From positions 1 to 37,758 of the forward strand of contig JAHLWH010000019.1 in NCBI GenBank assembly GCA_019058015.1: a DNA stretch of 37,758 nt. The letters are read 5' to 3'. The notes below the pieces were generated by a model, which was given only the letters and a program-made list of their open reading frames with translations, searched no databases and was not told where the DNA came from. Of the stretch, positions 22,433 to 37,757 are shown one piece after another. Source of the stretch: Promethearchaeota archaeon (lineage in GTDB: Archaea; Asgardarchaeota; Lokiarchaeia; Sigyniarchaeales; SOKP01). Position 1 is the stretch's first letter. Every line of letters begins with the position of its first letter. The position numbers and the translations under genes are program-made.

Positions 22433-22936
22433 ATGGAAAGGATGTCGCAACTAAACTTTATGGATATTTATAAATTTTTACCAAAAACTAATTGTAAGGA
22501 ATGTGATTTGCCTACATGTATGGCATTTGCCTTAGCATTGGTTAAGGGTGAGAAACAGCCAAAAGATTGTCCTCCACTTCTCGAACCTAAGTATAAACAA
22601 AGTTTAGATAAATTAAATGAGTTATTTGAAGGGGTAGGAGTGGGGGGAAAAGACTTACATATTGATATTGATAATGAAAAATGTGATGGGTGCGGCGTAT
22701 GTGTGATTGTTTGTCCTGTTAATGCTCGATATTGTCCTAATTCTTTAAGTGGAAAATTACCAGATTTCCCTCCCAATGAATATCAATTATTTCAAATAAA
22801 AAACGGAAAATCAGAACTTTTAAATTTGGAATATTGTAGAAGATTAGAAGCAGAAGGACGAGAGCGTGAATGCCGAGTATGTGAAGTATATTGTCCACGG
22901 GATTCAATAGAAATTAAGTATTATACAGCCAAATAA
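22433..22936 (+). CDS. Fe-S protein: PF04060-type 4Fe-4S N-domain plus ferredoxin-like domain, first gene of divergent fwd' operon
   Basis: LPKTNCKECDLPTCMAFALALVKGEKQPKDCPPL; CDGCGVCVIVCPVNARYCP; CRVCEVYCPRDSI. Confidence 0.8.
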   Translation: MERMSQLNFMDIYKFLPKTNCKECDLPTCMAFALALVKGEKQPKDCPPLLEPKYKQSLDKLNELFEGVGVGGKDLHIDIDNEKCDGCGVCVIVCPVNARYCPNSLSGKLPDFPPNEYQLFQIKNGKSELLNLEYCRRLEAEGRERECRVCEVYCPRDSIEIKYYTAK

Positions 22937-22986
22937 CATCTTCAAATTAAATAATAATTATAACTTAAATTAATGGAATGATATAA

Positions 22987-24321
22987 ATGACTCAAAGTAC
23001 AAAAAATCAAGAAAGAATCCAGAGATTTGTGTGTCCTGGATGTTCATTATATTGCGACGATAATCAAGTCATATATTCCGAAAATAATGAAATTATCGAG
23101 ACTTATGGTTTATGCTTAAAGGGTTATAAAAAATTAAATGAAATTAATTCAAAAAATCGCATCAAAAAACCCTTAATTCGCAAGAATGGTGAGTTAAAAG
23201 AAGTATCATTAGATAAGGCACTAAATAAAGTTAAAGAAATTATTAACTCTTCCCAAAAATCCCTCCTATATGGTTTTGTTAATACAACTTGTGAAGCACA
23301 AATAAATGGAATATGGCTTGCCAAGAAAATAAATGGATTCATTGAGTCTAATGCATCAATTTGTCATGGTCAAACTTATTCGAATGCTATCGAGAGTGGA
23401 TTCCATTCTACTACATTAAATGAATGTATTAATAAAGCTGACGTATTTATATTTTGGGGTTCTAACGCTGCAGAGTCCAACCCGAAATTTTTAACAAAAA
23501 CAATTTTTTCAAGAGGTAAATTTAGAATAACGGGAAGAGAAATAAAAACATTAATTTTAGTTGATCCTCGAAAAACCGCGACTTATGGAGTTGCTGGAGT
23601 TCGGGATTTGTATATTCCTTTAAAACCTGGCAAAGATTTGGAGCTAATTCAATTTTTAAAAGATATGATTTTAAAGGAAAAATCCGAAGTACCAGCTGAT
23701 GGTTTTGTTGGTGTTGATAAACAGGATTTAAATCGTCTCATCCTAAATTTGAAAGGTTCAGAAAATGGTGTAATCCTTTTTGGACAAGGAGTAATTAATT
23801 CCAATCCTAATGGAAATGTTATAAAGGCTTTAATTGAATTGGTGGATTTGATTAATGAAACTTCTAAGAGAAGTCGTTTTTCAATTATTCCTATGACCGG
23901 GCATAATATGAATGGTTTTATCCAAGTTTCTTTATCTTTATTGGGAAAAATGGACCAAATAGAATTTTCTGATAACCAACTTATCGAATCAAATAAAGAC
24001 TTAATTTCTAAAATAAAGGATGACGAATTTGACATGTCCATTATCGTTGCTTCGGATCCAATATCTAATTTACCGATAACCCTAAGCTCCAAATTAGCAA
24101 AAAAACCCATAATTGCAATTGATTGCTTTATTACCCCTACAACAAAATTAGCTGATGTTATATTGCCCGTGGCAATTACAGGAATAGAAACTGATGGACT
24201 TGTGTATAGAATGGATAATATTCCTATGAATTTGCAAAAAATAATCGATCCACCAGCTAATCTGCCTTCTGATGAGCAGATTTTGCTGAAAATAATACAA
24301 AAAATGGAGGAAAAAAGATGA
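22987..24321 (+). CDS. Divergent formylmethanofuran dehydrogenase subunit B paralog (FwdB')
   Basis: CPGCSLYCDD FeS motif, ASICHGQT, FWGSNAAESNPK, VDPRKTATYG; aligns to FwdB at 28851-30167; MRGH -> MTGH. Confidence 0.85.
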   Translation: MTQSTKNQERIQRFVCPGCSLYCDDNQVIYSENNEIIETYGLCLKGYKKLNEINSKNRIKKPLIRKNGELKEVSLDKALNKVKEIINSSQKSLLYGFVNTTCEAQINGIWLAKKINGFIESNASICHGQTYSNAIESGFHSTTLNECINKADVFIFWGSNAAESNPKFLTKTIFSRGKFRITGREIKTLILVDPRKTATYGVAGVRDLYIPLKPGKDLELIQFLKDMILKEKSEVPADGFVGVDKQDLNRLILNLKGSENGVILFGQGVINSNPNGNVIKALIELVDLINETSKRSRFSIIPMTGHNMNGFIQVSLSLLGKMDQIEFSDNQLIESNKDLISKIKDDEFDMSIIVASDPISNLPITLSSKLAKKPIIAIDCFITPTTKLADVILPVAITGIETDGLVYRMDNIPMNLQKIIDPPANLPSDEQILLKIIQKMEEKR

Positions 24322-24692
24322 AATTACTGTTAAGTACAATACGCGAGTTAAAATATGATCAAAAAATCCTTATTAATGAATTATCTGAGAAAGAGCTCAA
24401 AGATAATGTAGCTATCTGCTTAATTCATCCAGAAACATACAATAAAATTGTGTCAAAATCTGGAGTAAATTTAAAATTAACAACCAGTTATGGTTCAGTT
24501 GTTTTAAAGCCAGTTTGGGATGAATCTATTCCCTTAGAAATGATTTACATAAATAAATCAATTTGGGCTAATCAAATCACCGGGGATTTTAAGCAAAAAA
24601 TTCTTTTTAAAAATTTAGAGGTTGAAATTGAGCCAACGGAAGAGGATGTTCCAGAAATCTCTAATCTATTAGAAAAACTGAAAAATTTCTAA
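24318..24692 (+). CDS. Divergent formylmethanofuran dehydrogenase subunit D paralog (FwdD')
   Basis: Overlaps fwdB' by 4 bp; similar size and layout to FwdD at 30183 (INKSIWANQIT vs IPMGPWANAVI); GTGMPSYKG motif not recognisable. Confidence 0.75.
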   Translation: MKLLLSTIRELKYDQKILINELSEKELKDNVAICLIHPETYNKIVSKSGVNLKLTTSYGSVVLKPVWDESIPLEMIYINKSIWANQITGDFKQKILFKNLEVEIEPTEEDVPEISNLLEKLKNF

Positions 24693-24708
24693 GAGAGGAA
24701 TTAAAATA

Positions 24709-26385
24709 ATGTCCAATTTAATTATAAAAAATGGGATTGTTTTTGATCCGATAAATAATATTTCTGGTGAAAAGAAGGATTTATTAATTGAAGCAGGAAA
24801 AATTGTTGATAAATTCAAACACACTAATCCAAAAGATGCAAAATCTATAGATGCCAGTGGTAAAACAGTCATCCCAGGCGCAATAGATATTCACACGCAT
24901 ATTGCCTCACAACAAACTAATAATATCCGATTATTGGGCTCAAAAAATAAAGAAGTTCTACAATTTTGGAATGGGCTTACACTGGATTACTTAACAAAAG
25001 AATATGTTCAAAAGGGGTATACTTTTATTGTTGAGGCAAATGTATTCCCATCCTTAGCCAAACAAACTATTTTTAATTTTGGTCAAATTCCAATTTTAGA
25101 TAAAGCAATGCTGATTAATGCCAGCAATTTATGGTCTCTTGAATTGGAATATCAGAAGGGAGATATTGAAAAATTGTCAATATTTATCTCTGACTTCTTG
25201 GATTTAATCAAAGGTTTTGGAATAAAGATATATAATCCTTTTGAAGCAGAAGAATGGGATTTTAAAGAAATCAGAGATGATATAACGACAAATGGTCGAC
25301 TTTATAATTTTAATGCACTGGACGTTTTCAGAAATATGACTAAAACAATTGAGCAAATTGGATTACCCCATTCCATCCATGCTCATATTGACGGATATGA
25401 ATCAAAGATCGGGGAGTTAAATGCCATAAAAGTATTAGAGGATATTAAAACTCAAGGACTCACACCAAATCAATCAAGTCAAACAAAAATTAAACGTTCT
25501 CAAATATTCCATTTAGCTCATGCATCTGCTTATTCTTTTAACGACGATACTAAATTGATTAATTTTTTCAATTCAAATGACAATTTTGACCTTGATTTAG
25601 GTTTTATAAGTTTCAATCCTATAAATCCCCTAATTACATCGGATAGAAGGTTAATTAATAAATATTTGGATAAGAAAAAAGCTCCTAAGAAGTACCCCAT
25701 AATTAAAGGTGCAATTGAATCTGAAGGGGATCATTTTGAAACTTTCAGGACACTAAAAAAAGATAATTCGGAGTATTGCATGCTCTGGTCAAATGCTTTA
25801 AATTTAGCTTTAAGGATAAAAGATAAATGGAAACTTCAATTTTCAATAAATTTTCCCAATTATGCCCATTTAACTGACATTCCAGAAATTATCTCATGGT
25901 TATTGAATAAAAATTCTAGGACCACTTTTATGGAAAATATGAATAATGAATTTAAACAAGACAATCCAATCTTTAATATAGAAGATACTTTTTCCATTAA
26001 TGATTTAATAATCATAACACGAGCAAGTCCAGCTAAATCTTTGGGCTTGGGAGATATAAAAGGAAATTTGGGTATTGGAGCCGATGCAGATATTAATATT
26101 TTAAATATAAATCTTCAAGAAAAAGACTCAGCTTCTCAAATAGATGAGATTAAGAAAGCTTTTTCTGATATAGATACCGTGATTAAGAATGGAATTATTG
26201 TAAAACAGGGTGAAAAGATAAATCTAAATCATAAAGGTTCACTTTATTGGTCAAAAGGCACAGTTAATACCCAAAATTATGAAAAAATTATGGATAAAAA
26301 AAAGGAATTTTATAAAAAATATAGCTCAATCTTCTATGAATCATTGAAACCAAATACTGATAAAATTAAGTTAATTAAAATATAA
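24709..26385 (+). CDS. Divergent formylmethanofuran dehydrogenase subunit A paralog (FwdA'), amidohydrolase fold
   Basis: DIHTHIAS, GIKIYNPFEAEEW (carboxylysine position), SIHAHIDGYES, FHLAHASAYSF, SPAKSLGLGDIKGNLGIGADADINI; catalytic TDHPNGG replaced by INFPNYA. Confidence 0.85.
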   Translation: MSNLIIKNGIVFDPINNISGEKKDLLIEAGKIVDKFKHTNPKDAKSIDASGKTVIPGAIDIHTHIASQQTNNIRLLGSKNKEVLQFWNGLTLDYLTKEYVQKGYTFIVEANVFPSLAKQTIFNFGQIPILDKAMLINASNLWSLELEYQKGDIEKLSIFISDFLDLIKGFGIKIYNPFEAEEWDFKEIRDDITTNGRLYNFNALDVFRNMTKTIEQIGLPHSIHAHIDGYESKIGELNAIKVLEDIKTQGLTPNQSSQTKIKRSQIFHLAHASAYSFNDDTKLINFFNSNDNFDLDLGFISFNPINPLITSDRRLINKYLDKKKAPKKYPIIKGAIESEGDHFETFRTLKKDNSEYCMLWSNALNLALRIKDKWKLQFSINFPNYAHLTDIPEIISWLLNKNSRTTFMENMNNEFKQDNPIFNIEDTFSINDLIIITRASPAKSLGLGDIKGNLGIGADADINILNINLQEKDSASQIDEIKKAFSDIDTVIKNGIIVKQGEKINLNHKGSLYWSKGTVNTQNYEKIMDKKKEFYKKYSSIFYESLKPNTDKIKLIKI

Positions 26386-28033: not shown

Positions 28034-28858
28034 CTACCTCGCTACATATAATCTTCCTTTAGTTTTTGCACTTGTTGCATGATCTCCACTATATTCAATA
28101 AACTTACCTGAGATCTTTTCACCGTCTGGCAATTCGATTTCTGAAACTTCTCCAATTTTTTTAAAGGATGGCATTATCCTGCCGATTTTTCCTTTCACTA
28201 CGACGAATCCACGCGCTTGATCGGCAGCAACTCGAGCTTCCGCATTACCTTCACAAATAATTATACCTCCGTGATTATGAAGGCCGAAAAACTGACCTGC
28301 AGAACCACAGATTAATTTTGGGAACCTTTTTTTTGGAGTAGAACCTCGAGCCCAAATCATTGATTCATATCCAACACTTCCTTTAACTTTTATCACTCCA
28401 TTTGTCATACCTTCCCAATTCCCTCTATATGCAGCACCTACATAATTCCCCGCATTCCCTGTAATTTCTAATTCGCCTCCTTCCATCATTGCTCCTGCCC
28501 AATCCGCAGCATTACCATTCACTACAATTTTTCCTCCATTCATTGTATTTCCTACGTGCATTCCCACATCTCCATTAATTGTAATTGCCCCACCGGACAT
28601 TTTTTCCCCGATTCTTTTTACTTTTGACAAATTTCCATTTATCACAATTTCAATATCATCTAAATTATTACCAGCCGTGCCTTTAATATCAAAATAATCT
28701 TTAAGTGAAAGTTTTTCATTACCATGAAATATTATTAGATTCGCTATGTCTTTTTGTGTTTTACCTTTGAAGTTATCAGGGGTTATGGATTCTGCTTCAA
28801 GAGAAAAAGTGGGTTCCTTCTTTAAAGTTAATTCAATCTTTCCCATTCTTCTACTCAC
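28034..28858 (-). CDS. fwdC: Formylmethanofuran dehydrogenase subunit C
   Basis: GXGXG repeat domain: INGDVGMHVGNTMNGGKIVVNGNAADWAGAMMEGGELEITGNAGNYVG. Confidence 0.93.
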   Translation of the reverse strand: MSRRMGKIELTLKKEPTFSLEAESITPDNFKGKTQKDIANLIIFHGNEKLSLKDYFDIKGTAGNNLDDIEIVINGNLSKVKRIGEKMSGGAITINGDVGMHVGNTMNGGKIVVNGNAADWAGAMMEGGELEITGNAGNYVGAAYRGNWEGMTNGVIKVKGSVGYESMIWARGSTPKKRFPKLICGSAGQFFGLHNHGGIIICEGNAEARVAADQARGFVVVKGKIGRIMPSFKKIGEVSEIELPDGEKISGKFIEYSGDHATSAKTKGRLYVAR

Positions 28859-30167
28859 CTTTTAACTCCTTTACTTTTTCAATTAATTTTTCTATAATCT
28901 CATAATCTGCCATACAATCTTCGGGAGCATTTTTCACTTTTCTCAATCTAATTGGCACTTTATCCATACGATATGCCGTTCCTTCACATTCAATCCCGGC
29001 AATTGCTGGAGGGAGAATTATATCTGCCATTTCAGAAGTCGGCGTTTTATGGGGCTCAACGGATATTAAAGGTTTTTTTAGCATATTGATTACAGCATCT
29101 TTTGGAAAATTTGAAGCGGGGTCTGAGGCCACAATCAAGGTAACATCAAAATCGTTTCTTTTTAATATATCTACTGCTGAAAACTCACCTGGATTATAGC
29201 GGGGATAATCTCTTGAAAAATCTATGGAATATGGGTAACCAGTTGTCCATGTAAATACAATATTTGCTCCTGAAACATTATAATGACCTCTCATTGGAGT
29301 TAAATTAAATTTAGTATGCTCATTCAATTCCCTGATAAGACTTATTCCTGCATCTACATTTCTATGCTTGCCTTTTGACATAGTTAAGCCAAGACCAAAA
29401 AATAATACACCGAACTTACAAGATTTAAGGATTTCAACAAGCTCTTTAATTTGCTTGATAGGAACTCCTGCTACTTCTTTAACATCTAATTCTACACCAC
29501 GACACATAGCTCTAATAGCATTAAACAATTCATAATCTTCGCCAGGATTTAATCTAATATGCATATCTGCCATTTGGGCGGTATGAGTTGTTCTAGGATC
29601 TACAACAATTATTGTTCGGTCAAGATGGCCATCTACTCTGAAATAACCGCGAATAAAATCACTATATCGACTCATATGCCTTGGATGAGCATGAACTGGA
29701 TTGGAGCCCCAAAATAAAACTAAATCTGCCCGATTTTTATATTCACCCAAAGTACTTGTTGGGCAACCAACATCTTGAATAGCGAGAAGTGAAGGTCCGT
29801 GACAAACAGATGCGGTATTATCAAGAACTCCACCACAAATTTCCATTAATTCAACAGCCTTTCGCTGCGCATCACATTCGGTTGAACTCCATCCATATGA
29901 TAATGGTCTCTTTGCATTTGCTAATAGCTCAGCGGCTTTATTTAATGCTTCATCCCAAGTAACTTTCTCTAATTTGTCATTATTTCTCATCATAGGTTTT
30001 GTATATCTGTGCTCTGACACATTCGATGAGAAAAATTTTGCAGTTCCTATAGCACAAGCATTATCTACTTCAATAATCTTATTATCTTCTAAAATAATTT
30101 TTAAATCATCACAAAGCGTCCCACAGAAAGGACAAACTACATCTTCAAAATTTTTAAATTTTTTCAT
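28851..30167 (-). CDS. fwdB: Formylmethanofuran dehydrogenase subunit B (canonical)
   Basis: VCPFCGTLCDD, TASVCHGPS (metal-ligand Cys + His), FWGSNPVHAHPRH, PMRGHYNVSGAN (catalytic Arg). Confidence 0.95.
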   Translation of the reverse strand: MKKFKNFEDVVCPFCGTLCDDLKIILEDNKIIEVDNACAIGTAKFFSSNVSEHRYTKPMMRNNDKLEKVTWDEALNKAAELLANAKRPLSYGWSSTECDAQRKAVELMEICGGVLDNTASVCHGPSLLAIQDVGCPTSTLGEYKNRADLVLFWGSNPVHAHPRHMSRYSDFIRGYFRVDGHLDRTIIVVDPRTTHTAQMADMHIRLNPGEDYELFNAIRAMCRGVELDVKEVAGVPIKQIKELVEILKSCKFGVLFFGLGLTMSKGKHRNVDAGISLIRELNEHTKFNLTPMRGHYNVSGANIVFTWTTGYPYSIDFSRDYPRYNPGEFSAVDILKRNDFDVTLIVASDPASNFPKDAVINMLKKPLISVEPHKTPTSEMADIILPPAIAGIECEGTAYRMDKVPIRLRKVKNAPEDCMADYEIIEKLIEKVKELKGE

Positions 30168-30182
30168 TTACTTTGCCTCTTT

Positions 30183-30563
30183 CTATTTATAACTTTTAAT
30201 TATTTCTAATGCTGTAAGAATCCTTCCACTTTTTACTACTTCAACCTCTGCTTCCGTTCCTTTGTATGAGGGCATACCGGTGCCATATGTTTCGGAATTA
30301 ATAACAGCATTTGCCCAAGGACCCATTGGAATAAAGATAATGCCAGGATGGGGTCCTTGTTCTGAAATTTGAGAATATACAACCACTTCCCCAAATTTTG
30401 TAGTGACCTTGACAGGTGTTCCAATCATACAATCCAATTTTGCAAAATCGTCTTTATCAAATTCACAAATTGCACAAGCTTTTATATTTTCCCTTCCTAG
30501 CTTTTGACCTTCAAGGGCAACTCCCTGGTCTATGGTTCGACCGGTGGTTAGAAAAAACTTCAT
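30183..30563 (-). CDS. fwdD: Formylmethanofuran dehydrogenase subunit D
   Basis: MKFFLTTGRTIDQG, IGTPVKVTTKFGEVVV, IPMGPWANAVINSETYGTGMPSYKG; start reassigned to 30563. Confidence 0.92.
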   Translation of the reverse strand: MKFFLTTGRTIDQGVALEGQKLGRENIKACAICEFDKDDFAKLDCMIGTPVKVTTKFGEVVVYSQISEQGPHPGIIFIPMGPWANAVINSETYGTGMPSYKGTEAEVEVVKSGRILTALEIIKSYK

Positions 30564-31273
30564 TTTATTCCTTTCCACCCCCTTCTCATTATTTTCAATC
30601 GTTCAACCATATCTGGCCAAAACGGCTCGTTATAATCACCAGAATATTTTACTTCAGTAATTTCAAGCTTTATTGCACCTGTTGGACAAGCATTATCACA
30701 AGTTCCACAATATATGCATTTTTTATCATCAAGCTCAATCTTAGGAGATTTTTCCCAACCAGGTGTTTCTTTTTGTTTTTCTGGAAGCGTTATAGCTCCC
30801 GTGGGGCAAACATCAACGCAAGTAGAACAACCACCTGCACATTCTTCTATAACAATACTGATCTTCCCTTCAACATACTGTTTAGCTTGACGGCCAATTT
30901 TTTCACAATCTTTTAATTCAAATTCTAATTTAGGTAGTGCTTTCTTTTGAACTAATGGTAAATCAATAGATTCTACTTTCTCATCATTATAATAAATTGA
31001 GAGCGCAAAGAATGGGCACATATAGACACAAACTCCACAAAAACTGCATTTATTCGGGTCATATATGTTTGGAACAAGATCTTCAGTAGATAACTTTATT
31101 GTTGCACCTATTGGTCCTCTAGATACAGCTTCCATAGGACAGACTTTGGAACATACTCCGCAACCCACACATTTTGTTTTATCCAAATCAAGCTGAGTAC
31201 TTTCAATCAAATATTTTACTCGAACACTTTCCATTTCTTTTGTTATTGTCCTTGATATTTTTGGAAATGACAT
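30560..31273 (-). CDS. fwdF: FwdF-like polyferredoxin
   Basis: Four 4Fe-4S motifs: CVGCGVCSKVCP, CSFCGVCVYMCP, CAGGCSTCVDVCP, CIYCGTCDNACP. Confidence 0.85.
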   Translation of the reverse strand: MSFPKISRTITKEMESVRVKYLIESTQLDLDKTKCVGCGVCSKVCPMEAVSRGPIGATIKLSTEDLVPNIYDPNKCSFCGVCVYMCPFFALSIYYNDEKVESIDLPLVQKKALPKLEFELKDCEKIGRQAKQYVEGKISIVIEECAGGCSTCVDVCPTGAITLPEKQKETPGWEKSPKIELDDKKCIYCGTCDNACPTGAIKLEITEVKYSGDYNEPFWPDMVERLKIMRRGWKGIK

Positions 31274-31327
31274 CTTTATTTCTCAACTTCTAATTATTAA
31301 TAATCTTTTTAATTTCTTTAATTAAAA

Positions 31328-31594
31328 TTATTTGATTTCTAACATTTGAACTATTTTTATATTAATTGCCTTTTGCGGGCAAATTTCAACACAAACTCCA
31401 CAACCGGTACAATTTATAGTTCTATTCTCCTCATATATTTCATTTGCATAGCCATTTTTAACTAAAATAACTGCGTTTTTATCATTTAAATAACCTTTTT
31501 CTTTTAATTGATCAAAATTTACAGGACATGAAACCACGCAATCGTTGCATCCTGTGCACAAAACCTTATTTACTTCAATTCTATAAACTTTCAT
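31328..31594 (-). CDS. fwdG: FwdG-like 2x[4Fe-4S] ferredoxin subunit
   Basis: CTGCNDCVVSCP and CTGCGVCVEICP; position within the fwd cluster. Confidence 0.8.
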   Translation of the reverse strand: MKVYRIEVNKVLCTGCNDCVVSCPVNFDQLKEKGYLNDKNAVILVKNGYANEIYEENRTINCTGCGVCVEICPQKAINIKIVQMLEIK

Positions 31595-31597
31595 TAT

Positions 31598-32026
31598 CTA
31601 TTCCTCCATTCTTAATGGATTTGGTCCAATTTCTTTTAATTCTTTAACAAATTCCTTTACAATTTCTGTTAATTCTGCACCTTCGCTTGCAGAAACTTGT
31701 GTGTATTTGACCCTTTTTGGATTAACTCCAAATTGTTCAAGCATTTTTATAAATAATGGCATCTTTCGAAATGTTTTAAGATTCCCTTCTACATAATGAC
31801 AATCACCGACATGACAATGACTTACAAGAACACCATCCGCACCATTTTTTAATGCTTGAATTACCATTAGTGGTTCCATCCGCCCCCCACACATAACTCT
31901 TAAAATTCTTAAATTTGCAGGTCTTTGCATACGGCTCGTACCTGCTTGGTCTGCACCAGCATATGTACACCAATTACAGCAAATTCCTAAAATATAAGGG
32001 TCAAAATCTTCTTTCACTTTAGCCAT
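31598..32026 (-). CDS. mvhD: MvhD/FrhD-like hydrogenase iron-sulfur (delta) subunit
   Basis: ILGICCNWCTYAGADQAGTSR, VMCGGRMEP, LVSHCHVGDCHYVEGN; adjacent to hdrA. Confidence 0.92.
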   Translation of the reverse strand: MAKVKEDFDPYILGICCNWCTYAGADQAGTSRMQRPANLRILRVMCGGRMEPLMVIQALKNGADGVLVSHCHVGDCHYVEGNLKTFRKMPLFIKMLEQFGVNPKRVKYTQVSASEGAELTEIVKEFVKELKEIGPNPLRMEE

Positions 32027-32027
32027 T

Positions 32028-34034
32028 TTATTTACTCCCATTTTCTGTTTTTGCTAGTGGTGGAATGGCTGTATTGATCATAGCAAAAATTTGATCATCT
32101 GAAAAGTGATTCTGGACAATAGCATCTGATGGACAAGCCGCAGCGCATGTTCCGCAGCCTTTACAAAGAGCTTTATTGATAACTGCAATATTTTTAAATA
32201 CATCAAAACTTATTGCATTAAATGGACATAAGCTTTGACATGATTTACATCCGCTACATTTATACTCCAGAACTACAGAATAATATGGTTCGATTGCAAA
32301 TTCTCCCATTGCCATTAACGAAGCGGCACCAGAAGCTGCTCCTTTAGCTTGTGCTACAGCATCAGGTATATCCTTGGGTCCTTGAGCTACACCTGCAACA
32401 AATATACCATCTGTTAATGTGTCAACTGGACGAAGTTTCGGATGTGCTTCCATGAAGAACCCATCTGCAGAGCGTTGAATTGTCAATATTGAAGCAATCT
32501 GATCTGCATCATATCGGGCTACTAAACCGCATGATAAAACCAACATATCCAACTTAATTTCTATCTGCTTTTGAAGTAAAGTATCTTCAGCACGAACTAT
32601 AATGCTGTGATCTTCATCCTCATAAACTTCACCTATTCTGCCGCGAATATATTTTATTCCGAAATTTCTTCCAGCGGATTCATAAAATTCTTCATACCCC
32701 TTGCCAAACGCACGAATGTCCATATAAAAAATATAAATAGATGCTTCTGGATGCTTTTCTTTGTACTGTCTTGCTTGTTTGGTTGCATACATACAACAAA
32801 CACGGGAACAGTAATTATTTCCACCAGGGCGGAAGTTTCTACTCCCTACACATTGTAAAAACCCTATACTATGAGGTGGTTCTAAATCTGAAGGCCTTGC
32901 TGGTTTCCCTTCAAGAGGCCCAAACGAACTCAATAACCTTTCCATCTCTAACCCATTAATAACATTCGGATATTTACCGTATCCATACTGTTTTAATTCG
33001 GTAGGATCATATAAATCCCAACCGGTTGCAACAATTATTGTTCCTACTTTAATCTCGACATATTCAAGTTTATCATCAAACCTTATGGCATCCGGCTCAC
33101 AAACTTCCGGAGTTGCACAAATACCGCATTTTATACATTTTGTCATATCAATTGTAAATTCTCCTGGAACTGCTTGCGGGAATGGAATATAAATAGCCTT
33201 TCTTATTCCCAATCCCACCTCAAATTCATTAGCACATATAACAGGACATTCTATAGCGCATAAACCGCAACCCGTACATGCTTCTTGATCAACATAATGA
33301 GGTTTTTTCTTAATGGTTACATCAAAATTTCCTACATATCCATCTACCTTCTCAACTTCGGAATATGTCATAAGATGGATTTTTTCTTCCCTGCCAACAT
33401 CAACCATTCTTGGAGTTAAAATACATGCACTACAATCCATTGTCGGAAAGGTTTTATCTAATTGAGCCATATGCCCCCCTATAGTTGCCGTCCTTTCCAC
33501 CAAATAAACATCATATCCTTCTTTAGCTAAATCAATAGAAGCATTCATCCCAGCAATTCCAGCACCAATCACTAAACAAGCAGGCTCTACTTTTACTCGC
33601 TCAACTTCTAACGGTTTTAATTCACTTAATTTAGCAACAGCCATCCTAACGTGATCTTTAGCAATTTTAAACGCCCCTTCAGGATCATCTAAATTTACCC
33701 ATGTTGCATGCTCACGAATATTTGCCATCTCAAATAGAAATTCATTTACTCCTACCTCTTTAACCACCATTCTAAATGTTGGTTCATGCATTCGAGGACT
33801 ACATGCAGCAACAATCACACGATTTATTAATCCAGCTTCTATATCTTCCTTAATCATCTCTTGCCCTATACTGCTGCATATGAATTTATATTCCTTCGCA
33901 AGAGCAACATTTGGTAAAGTCTTCGCATATTCAGTAAGAGCAGGTACATCTATTACTCCAGCAATATTGATGCCACAATGGCATACGTAAACACCAATCT
34001 TTATTTCTTCATCATTTCTTAATGAATTAGACAT
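32028..34034 (-). CDS. hdrA: Heterodisulfide reductase-type subunit A
   Basis: GVYVCHCGINIAGVIDV, VIGAGIAGMNASIDLA, DKTFPTMDCSACILTPRMV, CTGCGLCAIECP, CSGCKSCQSLCP, CKGCGTCAAACP. Confidence 0.96.
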   Translation of the reverse strand: MSNSLRNDEEIKIGVYVCHCGINIAGVIDVPALTEYAKTLPNVALAKEYKFICSSIGQEMIKEDIEAGLINRVIVAACSPRMHEPTFRMVVKEVGVNEFLFEMANIREHATWVNLDDPEGAFKIAKDHVRMAVAKLSELKPLEVERVKVEPACLVIGAGIAGMNASIDLAKEGYDVYLVERTATIGGHMAQLDKTFPTMDCSACILTPRMVDVGREEKIHLMTYSEVEKVDGYVGNFDVTIKKKPHYVDQEACTGCGLCAIECPVICANEFEVGLGIRKAIYIPFPQAVPGEFTIDMTKCIKCGICATPEVCEPDAIRFDDKLEYVEIKVGTIIVATGWDLYDPTELKQYGYGKYPNVINGLEMERLLSSFGPLEGKPARPSDLEPPHSIGFLQCVGSRNFRPGGNNYCSRVCCMYATKQARQYKEKHPEASIYIFYMDIRAFGKGYEEFYESAGRNFGIKYIRGRIGEVYEDEDHSIIVRAEDTLLQKQIEIKLDMLVLSCGLVARYDADQIASILTIQRSADGFFMEAHPKLRPVDTLTDGIFVAGVAQGPKDIPDAVAQAKGAASGAASLMAMGEFAIEPYYSVVLEYKCSGCKSCQSLCPFNAISFDVFKNIAVINKALCKGCGTCAAACPSDAIVQNHFSDDQIFAMINTAIPPLAKTENGSK

Positions 34035-34049
34035 TTATTTTCCACACCT

Positions 34050-34998
34050 TTATATCATTTGCTCTTTTATTTTTTGTATTAATGGTTGAATTGAAATAAA
34101 TGGGGGAACTCCTTTCAAATCATGACCAGCCACAAGCCCTAAATCTCCCGGGTTCATACCCATTGCTAATCCTAATAATTGATTGTAATAAATAATGGGA
34201 ATTTTATATGACTCGCCTATAATATCTTTAAATTTATCATTTACTTGCATTTGACCAAGATCCATTTGTAAATGACAAAATGGGCAACAAACTATACAAC
34301 AATCCACATTAACTTTTCGCATATTTTCAAGTTTTTCCCTTGTAAAATCAAGAGAAACCTCTAATGATGCTGTTCGGACGGCTCCTCCAGCACCACAGCA
34401 CATAATCTTATCTTTATAATCGATGCTTTTTGCACCCGTTATCTCAACCAATTCATCAAAGAATCTCGGTTCTTCATATTCCCCTCCCCAAGGCCTATTG
34501 GATGAATCTTTAAGAATATGGCAACCATAATGCACGCCAACTCTTAAATCTGGAAACTTAATCTTGATATAATCTTTAAGTTTATCAATACCAAAATCAT
34601 AATATAATACTTCAATTAGATGTTTAACCTCAATTGTTCCTTTGAATTCCCTCCCAATTTTCGCAAGATGTTTATTAACCATATCCCGTTTTTTCTTATC
34701 ATGCTTTAATAGATGATTTACTTCAAGTAGAGTTCCATAGCAACCGTTGCATCCCAGTGTAATATCTGCTTCATTCTCTTCGGCTATTGAAATATTTCGT
34801 GCTCCAATAACGAGCCAAGTTGTGATATCAAAACCCCTAAAAACCCCAGGAGCTGGACAGCAACTCGCACCTTGCATATCTACTAATTCAATTCCCAATT
34901 CTTTAAAGGTATTGCGAATGGATTGTTCAATAAAAGGGTATCTATTGGGAATAACACATCCTAGATATAATGAATATCTTAAGTTTTTTTCAGACATA
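34050..34998 (-). CDS. hdrB: Heterodisulfide reductase-type subunit B
   Basis: SLYLGCVIPNRYPF, GASCCPAPGVF, LGCNGCYG, HYGCH...MCCGAGG...CPFCH (CCG domains); start likely MSEKNLRYS near 34998. Confidence 0.93.
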
Positions 34999-35132
34999 AT
35001 GGTTTTTCTTTCTTTGATTAAATTGGGGTAAAACACATTCTCTGAACTTAAGTAATTAATTATTCAATTTGTATTAAAATTTTAGATTAAAAGATATACA
35101 AAATTGTGGAGGAAAGGTTATATTTTAAAATA

Positions 35133-36383
35133 TTATTTTAGATCATCTTCTTTTTGCATTTTTATGAACTGTATCGGAATAATTGAGCTCAGGGTAAGTA
35201 TTCCTACGACAACAAGTAGAATACCAGTATCTATGAATCCAGAAAGAAAAGTACCTAATGGTCCGAAAATAAGCATAGAAATAATTACCATTAGTGCAAG
35301 CATCTGATATTTATAGCTAAATTTATTTCCTGCAAACTCCATCATTAAAGAAACAAATGCAATATAGGCTATTGCATTTGGAATTAATACAAACATTCCT
35401 AATATGATTAAAGTCCAAAGATCCATCAGTGGAATACACATATCAAATAAACCAACAATAATTATTGAAAAATAAAGAATTTTCTTTCTATTACTATATT
35501 TCAACGCGATATTTATTAAGAGGTATCCAATAATATTAATGAAAGGCGCAAAAATCAGAAAGAACAAAAATATTTCAAAACATTCTTGACCAAACCTTTC
35601 CACTAACCATGGTTCGTAGGGAACTTGCACAAGTGCTTCTGAGAAGAAAAGGAGCAAAAATACACTTATACAAATGAAACTAAGTTTTAAATATGATTGA
35701 TCTAATGTTTTCATACTTTTCTTTTTAGAGATTTCTTGCTTTATACCTTTTTCTTCAAGGCTTTCTTGTCTATTTCCTTCATTAATAGTTTTATTATATA
35801 TAAAATAAGAAAGAATTATTAATGGAAATAGTGTGATTAATTGGAAAGTAAAGAGATTATTCCATTCGTTTATGTTATAAATATTATTAATAATTAAAAT
35901 ATAGGATAAATAAGCTAAAATATTACCCAATGAATTTCCAATTTGTATTAAGACAATTTTCCTTTTTTTCGTTTGAATATTAGGTGAAGTATCGATAATA
36001 TCTCCATCAATTGCAACATCGATTATTGATATGCAGAAATAGTTTATACTCCAAAAAATACCAAAAATAATCATAATTTGAATTGAAATAATCATCAACA
36101 GAAAACTGATAAATAGGCCAATACTACCCAAAAATATGTAAATTTTCCTTTTAGGATGTTGACCAGTTTTTTCAAAGGTTTTATCGGATATTAGTGCGAA
36201 TATCGGTTTAATTAAAAATGCTGAATATGAAATTAACTGAGCAAAAGCAATTTCTAATTCAGGAATTCCCAAAACCGTAATTAGTAGAACAGGTAAAAAA
36301 GTATTGAAAAACACTAAAAGGAGTCCTTGGACTAAATATCCAAAAAGATATGTTAGGCTATTTACTATTTTCATTTTATTCAC
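35133..36383 (-). CDS. MFS-fold transporter (GPH-like or related), within the fwd-hdr cluster
   Basis: ~12 hydrophobic segments; loop ALISDKTFEKTGQHPKRKIYIFLG after TM2 as in MFS/GPH proteins. Confidence 0.7.
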   Translation of the reverse strand: MNKMKIVNSLTYLFGYLVQGLLLVFFNTFLPVLLITVLGIPELEIAFAQLISYSAFLIKPIFALISDKTFEKTGQHPKRKIYIFLGSIGLFISFLLMIISIQIMIIFGIFWSINYFCISIIDVAIDGDIIDTSPNIQTKKRKIVLIQIGNSLGNILAYLSYILIINNIYNINEWNNLFTFQLITLFPLIILSYFIYNKTINEGNRQESLEEKGIKQEISKKKSMKTLDQSYLKLSFICISVFLLLFFSEALVQVPYEPWLVERFGQECFEIFLFFLIFAPFINIIGYLLINIALKYSNRKKILYFSIIIVGLFDMCIPLMDLWTLIILGMFVLIPNAIAYIAFVSLMMEFAGNKFSYKYQMLALMVIISMLIFGPLGTFLSGFIDTGILLVVVGILTLSSIIPIQFIKMQKEDDLK

Positions 36384-36501
36384 TTAAATTAGGATAGGTG
36401 GTCAATGTATTTAATATTAATATCCAGTACAAAGAATTCTTTTTTGTTTTTTATTAAAAAGAAGAAAAGAATGCCCTTTAAAGAAATATTTAAAGTATAA
36501 T

Positions 36502-37062
36502 TTACTTTTTTTCCGCTTTTTCTTCTTTTTTAGCGTATTTTCCCCAAGCAATAGTTTTATCAAAGCCCACACTACTAATTAATTCTTGCACTTCTTTAAC
36601 GTATTTAGGATCCGTATGGACTGTTGGAGGAACTCTGTTTACACCATAGGATTCTCTCATAATGTTCCATTTTTCATCATTAATGGGAACCCCATGACCT
36701 GTATCATAGAACATCCTACATAAATTGAGATGATTTGGCAAAATATACCCTCTTTGAACCGCTAAATTTCTTAAGAATATAATCATATCTGTAATCGGCA
36801 GATTACGCGGACATCTTTCAAAACAAGTATAGCAAGTAGTACAGAGCCAGAGTTCTTTATCTGAGAGAACTTCTTCAAGTCCTAAAATCGCTTTTCTAAT
36901 TATCGAGCGTGTTCTCAATGCAGTCCTTCTTCCGGAGGGACAACCGGCTGTGCAATTACCGCACTGAATGCAAGCACCAATTTCCGCATATCCTGCTTTT
37001 CTAAGTTCATTAGAGATATCATCTTTAATCTCTAAGATTCGATCAGATTTTAAATCTTCCAT
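36502..37062 (-). CDS. hdrC: Heterodisulfide reductase-type subunit C
   Basis: CIQCGNCTAGCPSGRRTALRTRSIIRKAILG, CTTCYTCFERCPRNLPITDMI. Confidence 0.94.
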   Translation of the reverse strand: MEDLKSDRILEIKDDISNELRKAGYAEIGACIQCGNCTAGCPSGRRTALRTRSIIRKAILGLEEVLSDKELWLCTTCYTCFERCPRNLPITDMIIFLRNLAVQRGYILPNHLNLCRMFYDTGHGVPINDEKWNIMRESYGVNRVPPTVHTDPKYVKEVQELISSVGFDKTIAWGKYAKKEEKAEKK

Positions 37063-37073
37063 TTTAATCCTCC

Positions 37074-37757
37074 TTAAGTGAGTGTAGTAATAATTTTTTG
37101 TTTAGGAAGATATGCTTCTTGAACGGGATAATTATTAAAATTAATTGAATAATGGTCTCTCCATTTCTCTTTTATATCTTGTATTACAGATTTCATGAGA
37201 TCATCACTTACACTTGCTTTTGTCCAAATGGTATTACCAAGTGGTGTGGCTACAACCTTTCCATCTATTACAACGATTTTTCCATCTTTTATTGTGTAAG
37301 ATGCATTTGTGAATGCTTTTTCGATTTCAATTCCTTTATGTCGATTATCAGGATTGAATTTATATAGGCAAACATCAGCTTGAGCACCTACTCCAAGATG
37401 ACCTTTCTCCGCAAAACCTAGGCATTTAGCTGTTCCAGAGCGAGTACATTGGGCTAATTCATAAAGTGTTAATTCGGTATCCAAATTTTCTAGTTCTGTA
37501 GCTGAGCTTGCTTTGGGTGATAATTCTTCCTTAAGCAAGATATCTCTGGATTTCTTATCCATAAGCCATTTTATAATTCTTGGATAAAACGTAAAAGGTC
37601 CACCATTGGGGTGGTCGGTCGTCAACAGTACTTGCTCTTTATTTTTCACAGATAACAACAATTCCAATCCAATAGCCCATTGAATTGCATTCACGGCAAC
37701 CTTTGGGCTAAATATATATGGCACAAGTCCGGAGCCGCATTCTGCCTCTACTTGACC
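37074..37757 (-). CDS. fwdA: Formylmethanofuran dehydrogenase subunit A (canonical), truncated by window edge
   Basis: Open to right edge (GQVEAECGSGLVPYIFSPK...); LLTTDHPNGGPFTFYPRIIKWLM catalytic motif; CTRSGTAKCLGFAEKGHLGVGAQADV. Confidence 0.93.
   Translation of the reverse strand, partial: GQVEAECGSGLVPYIFSPKVAVNAIQWAIGLELLLSVKNKEQVLLTTDHPNGGPFTFYPRIIKWLMDKKSRDILLKEELSPKASSATELENLDTELTLYELAQCTRSGTAKCLGFAEKGHLGVGAQADVCLYKFNPDNRHKGIEIEKAFTNASYTIKDGKIVVIDGKVVATPLGNTIWTKASVSDDLMKSVIQDIKEKWRDHYSINFNNYPVQEAYLPKQKIITTLT

Follow-up and report, generated by a model that had tools for sequence, protein, structure and literature searches.

The window, by which we mean the whole stretch of 37,758 nucleotides that was analysed, carries an intact four-gene operon on the forward strand (22433-26385). 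It encodes an Fe-S protein (FeS) followed by paralogues of three formylmethanofuran dehydrogenase subunits, here called B', D' and A' (Table 1). As the preliminary description had it, these are four closely spaced Fwd-like genes on one strand: the gap between FeS and B' is 50 bp, B' and D' overlap by 4 bp and D' is followed by A' after 16 bp. In profile searches B' passes the cut-off of TIGR03129 (358.5 bits against 327.8), A' scores 302 bits with TIGR03121 and stays under its cut-off of 392.75, and D' matches FwdD with an E-value of 1e-12. The first gene product matches PF04060 and Fer4, so the operon indeed starts with a PF04060/ferredoxin-type protein.

Table 1. Positions in the window of the paralogous operon genes and of the canonical genes used for comparison.
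Feature	Position	Strand	Remarks
FeS protein (FwdG')	22433..22936	+	167 aa; AcsC/CdhE-type PF04060 [4Fe-4S] domain N-terminal, then FwdG-like ferredoxin
FwdB'	22987..24321	+	444 aa; MopB fold; Arg288 to Thr
FwdD'	24318..24692	+	124 aa; W-A-N motif kept
FwdA'	24709..26385	+	558 aa; amidohydrolase fold; Asp385 to Asn, Lys64 to Gln
Canonical FwdC-B-D-F	28034..31273	-	intact HGP and PMRGH motifs; for comparison, outside the paralogous operon
FwdC-B-D-F with MvhD-HdrA-HdrB and HdrC	28034..37062	-	
Canonical FwdA, 3' part	37074..37757	-	Asp385 motif TTDHPN intact; remainder on contig C105

Neither FwdC nor FwdF is encoded in the operon, although canonical copies of both lie elsewhere in the window. 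The earlier statement that the operon lacks these partners thus stands, but its extension to FwdG was wrong because the FeS protein is itself FwdG-like. The best fold match of its predicted model is FwdG (5t5i_G, TMt 0.81), with the AcsC corrinoid protein's N-terminal domain as runner-up. We therefore regard it as a subunit that resembles FwdG and carries an extra cluster domain of the AcsC type, a ferredoxin partner of the kind found in Fwd/Fmd. Since confidence in this model is middling (pLDDT 78, pTM 0.50), only its FwdG-like and AcsC-like parts were used. Twelve cysteines are invariant in the family (C21, 24, 29, 46; 84, 87, 90, 94; 135, 147, 150, 154), which is consistent with three [4Fe-4S] clusters. 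In D' the W-x-N motif is kept, and the canonical TGRTIxQG and GTGMPxxKG segments are altered or missing.

A canonical fwd set on the opposite strand of the same contig had also been noted, and FwdC, B, D and F are found there with intact motifs; FwdA runs off the end of the contig. The part of the split FwdA on contig C105 (28153-29085) follows a hydrogenase small-subunit-like ORF.

Homologous operons were sought in related genomes. Within the Lokiarchaeal family of the window (f1; 66 genomes, draft MAGs) orthologues of A' occur in 53 genomes at 48-94% identity, 51 of them free of internal stops, and the gene order is identical at every locus read. Among close relatives the dN/dS values of the four genes range from 0.10 to 0.27 (NG86/YN00), similar to those of the canonical fwd genes (0.02-0.27). 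The operon is conserved and under purifying selection. A decaying duplicate might explain the lost catalytic residues, but the intact orthologues, the low dN/dS and the fixed order rule it out for all practical purposes. Repurposing instead of decay, as proposed earlier, is supported by the occurrence in 53 of 66 genomes, by the dN/dS values and by 48 alignment columns that are newly invariant in Lokiarchaeal A'; the idea of a single-genome oddity or recent duplication did not hold. A scan of viral contigs for viral carriage yielded no relative.

Active-site residues of A' and B' are given in M. wolfei numbering. Canonical FwdB carries Cys118 (or Sec), His119, Arg288 and His290 at its CO2-reducing site, all four being present in 24 of 24 sequences sampled. 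This site is incomplete in B': Arg288 is lost in all 23 family sequences compared (Gly in 22, Thr in the window copy), and His119, the proposed gate of formate dehydrogenases (PMC11656701), is replaced by Gln in 21 of the 23, the window copy retaining His. Cys118 and His290 are kept in all 23, as are the N-terminal 4Fe-4S cysteines and the dinucleotide motifs, with invariant Asp/Trp positions. The loss of catalytic residues from both A and B, with intact reading frames and with the A' fold, Fe-S and metal-ligand residues preserved, was described correctly, as was the departure of all three paralogues from canonical motifs.

In A' the changes concern Asp385, which is Asn in 36 of 36 sequences, and Lys64, which is Gln. 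The former residue is the proposed base of the A subunit (PMC11656701) and the latter the proposed formate gate. The metal-ligand residues His57, 59, 229, 231 and 271 and Lys178 are kept, so that of the binuclear site of FwdA (four His, carboxy-Lys, Asp385) the His and Lys are present and Asp385 is changed. The predicted fold matches FwdA well (pLDDT 90, TM 0.90-0.91). Of the columns invariant in canonical FwdA (n = 66; 21-22 sequences sampled), 29 are retained and 22 wholly lost, and a single branch with support 100/100 separates A' from FwdA. Replacement of Asp385 by Asn normally disables amidohydrolase chemistry. This speaks against a bifunctional enzyme that would convert a different small carbonyl or sulfur compound and tunnel its product from B' to A', as does the lack of a nearby A' in methanosarcinal and bathyarchaeal members. 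Such an enzyme would fit the invariance of both metal-site ligand sets in Lokiarchaea, the joint change of both gates (His119 and Lys64, each to Gln) in most members and the FTR-beta disulfide-reductase-like gene adjoining Methanosarcina members, but we consider it doubtful.

Genes of the A' type are found in the Loki, Borr, Jord, Baldr, f20 and f4 lineages. Asp385 is retained in Borrarchaeum, f20 and f4, and is Asn in Loki and Jord. We conclude that the shared change in B' came first and that A' lost its residues afterwards, in ways that differ from lineage to lineage, the order of B' losses per branch being read off alignments only. In the A' of Baldrarchaeum (L090, 2.2-3.7 kb) Asp385 is kept but Lys178 and two of the metal histidines are gone, a third route of site loss.

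These different degenerations of A' in Loki, Jord and Baldr would suit a pure pseudo-enzyme scaffold, in which B' has its 4Fe-4S cluster only, like NuoG in complex I, A' and D' are structural and no catalytic Mo/W site exists. The same can be said of six Asgard families (f3, f4, f5, f7, f18 and f28) that have lost Cys118 as well but still possess the 4Fe-4S motif and the FeS partner. On the other hand, Cys118 and the Asp/Trp dinucleotide positions are invariant in Lokiarchaea and in nearly all methanogen members, His290 is invariant in Lokiarchaea and found in 9 of 13 Methanosarcinia sequences, and D' is maintained with its W-x-N motif, which makes the scaffold somewhat unlikely.

Relatives of the operon extend well beyond Lokiarchaea. 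When genome contigs were scanned with the B' lineage, FeS-B(-D) sets turned up in Borrarchaeum, Sifarchaeum, Jordarchaeum, Baldrarchaeum, Helarchaeota, Bathyarchaeota, Methanosarcina, Methanothrix, Methanococcoides and Methanoperedens; outside the Asgards this was one pattern-limited scan, on which, together with draft MAGs, the survey of neighbouring genes also rests. Of 232 Asgard genomes, about 100 encode a full-length FeS protein, in almost every case as a single copy. Every FeS-linked FwdB sampled lacks Arg288, whereas canonical FwdB without an FeS gene always has it (24/24), and in the tree one branch separates the two groups with support 100/98. The operon shares the features of this group, namely a PF04060 and Fer4 protein with 12 cysteines beside a non-canonical FwdB without Arg288. 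B' is thus part of an old monophyletic family of FwdB paralogues found in Asgards, Bathyarchaeia and Methanosarcinales. A literature search returned no paper describing the four-gene set.

The family probably includes fwdG2B2D2 of Methanosarcina, the M. acetivorans match being drawn from gene order and name and not from a comparison of sequences. That cluster is apparently annotated as a W-type formylmethanofuran dehydrogenase, and its fwdB2 is reported to be constitutively transcribed (PMC2838876). The annotation, the retained fold and the score of B' above the NCBI FwdB equivalog cut-off would agree with a working alternative isoform of the enzyme, metal- or condition-specific. Given an operon without FwdC, the loss of Arg288, Asp385 and Lys64, the separate clade and an intact canonical set on the same contig, this is very improbable.

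Beyond the Loki family the usual neighbours of FeS-B(-D) are a polyferredoxin gene and one for HdrA(-MvhD), the HdrA being about 790 aa long. Both are found in Borr-, Baldr- and Bathyarchaeota, in f10, f18, f28 and f29 and in Methanosarcina; in f2, f3 and f4 the polyferredoxin stands alone. This adjacency, usual but not universal, is absent at Loki-family loci, where the homologues are unlinked elsewhere in the genome. A polyferredoxin orthologue is present, once per genome, in 62 of the 66 family genomes, and the genome of the window has a long HdrA-MvhD-like protein. Operon linkage of the Lokiarchaeal polyferredoxin was rejected: it sits among unrelated genes, e.g. for an AAA ATPase and an ArsR-like protein, both recognised by inspecting the sequence.

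Several further neighbours were seen at individual loci. An FTR-beta-like gene, recognised by inspecting the sequence, lies just upstream of FeS-B'-D' in Methanosarcinaceae (L105, L107, L128) and is fused to thioredoxin in Methanococcoides. In Methanothrix (L125, L126, L137) the set is near genes for a membrane protein and an HdrD-like protein. D'-A' stands beside PTPS/QueD-like and DUF366 genes at L053 and L057, with a QueE-like gene in Jordarchaeia. Outside the window, four contigs of the same genome (C125, C237, C134, C143) have HdrA-like frames with in-frame TGA, probable selenocysteine HdrA/MvhD proteins.

A NifX-MinD-MinD cluster lies within about 7 kb of the operon in 18 Loki-family genomes (hand count from two position lists), often contiguous and on the same strand; at L036, L038, L046, L052 and L067, all Lokiarchaeal, it is contiguous and upstream. 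Together with the report that MrpORP hands Fe-S clusters to ORP proteins (PMC6345978), this could point to metal or cluster trafficking, where the complex and an ORP-type NifX-MinD-MinD system would load or store Mo/W or Fe-S clusters. The cluster is, however, not adjacent in the genus of the window and most other genera and is absent near non-Loki members, and MinD1 finds nothing at E<=1e-70 in 19 of the 66 genomes, several of which have the operon. NifX-MinD as obligate partner is therefore ruled out, and a trafficking role is improbable.

Taken together, repurposing of the operon is well supported and a CO2-fixing role unlikely. In our best reading, to which we assign a probability of roughly 0.5, the operon encodes an electron-transfer module working with the Hdr/polyferredoxin system, having in Lokiarchaea an altered redox site and an A' without hydrolytic activity, and not a CO2-fixing Fwd. 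The products would assemble into a FwdG'-B'-D'-A' complex of their own that has given up both the synthesis and the cleavage of formylmethanofuran. FwdG'-B' may conduct electrons or act as a redox unit attached to the Hdr/polyferredoxin flavin system, a wiring that for Lokiarchaea we infer from relatives because the HdrA and polyferredoxin genes are not adjacent there. The Mo/W-pterin site of Lokiarchaeal B'D' would still be loaded and act on a substrate other than CO2 or formate. A', with Asp385 replaced by Asn, may hold metal and a ligand without hydrolysis, capping or sensing what used to be the formate cavity. Besides the missing adjacency, two observations count against the electron module: the Cys118 loss in the six Asgard families, which would fit a scaffold free of a redox site, and the persistence of the polyferredoxin in some Lokiarchaea without the operon (e.g. 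G135). More tentatively, the family as a whole may be a Mo/W-pterin redox enzyme for a non-C1 substrate, widespread among Asgards and methanogens and coupled to Hdr-type electron bifurcation, with the Lokiarchaeal amidohydrolase turned into a non-hydrolytic, ligand-holding subunit.

Since B' passes the NCBI cut-off for FwdB, automatic annotation would call it a formylmethanofuran dehydrogenase, and where FwdB is used to count the capacity for CO2 fixation or the Wood-Ljungdahl pathway among Asgards and Methanosarcinales, the numbers are likely inflated. All sequences sampled can be assigned to true FwdB or to B' by the C-H-G and P-M-R-G-H motifs. The family would also present a CO2-reducing module that loses its chemistry stepwise while still linked to electron-transfer partners, in relatives of the ancestor of eukaryotes.

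The closest known systems compare as follows. NuoG of complex I has the MopB fold and was retained for electron transfer once its substrate chemistry had gone; its partners differ, and Lokiarchaeal B' keeps the Mo/W ligand. Fhc, the formyltransferase/hydrolase complex of methylotrophs (6S6Y), likewise combines a degenerate FwdB-side paralogue with a FwdA-type subunit, and its A subunit keeps hydrolysis. In contrast, the Lokiarchaeal operon retains D' and Cys118, has lost Asp385 in A' and encodes neither FhcC nor FhcD; Fhc itself has lost the D subunit and the pterin (PMC11656701). With canonical W/Mo Fwd/Fmd (5T5I, 7BKB, 8RJA) the operon shares the folds of A', B' and D', the FwdG-like ferredoxin and the metal-ligand and 4Fe-4S residues, but it lacks FwdC and FwdF as well as Arg288, Asp385 and Lys64 and falls into separate clades. 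The Methanosarcina loci matched to fwdG2B2D2 have the same FeS-B'-D' order, a B' of the same clade and the same loss of Arg288; they differ (L105, L106, L107) in having no nearby A' and in adjoining HdrA and polyferredoxin, often with the FTR-beta-like gene. Because this genus is genetically tractable, the function can be tested there directly.
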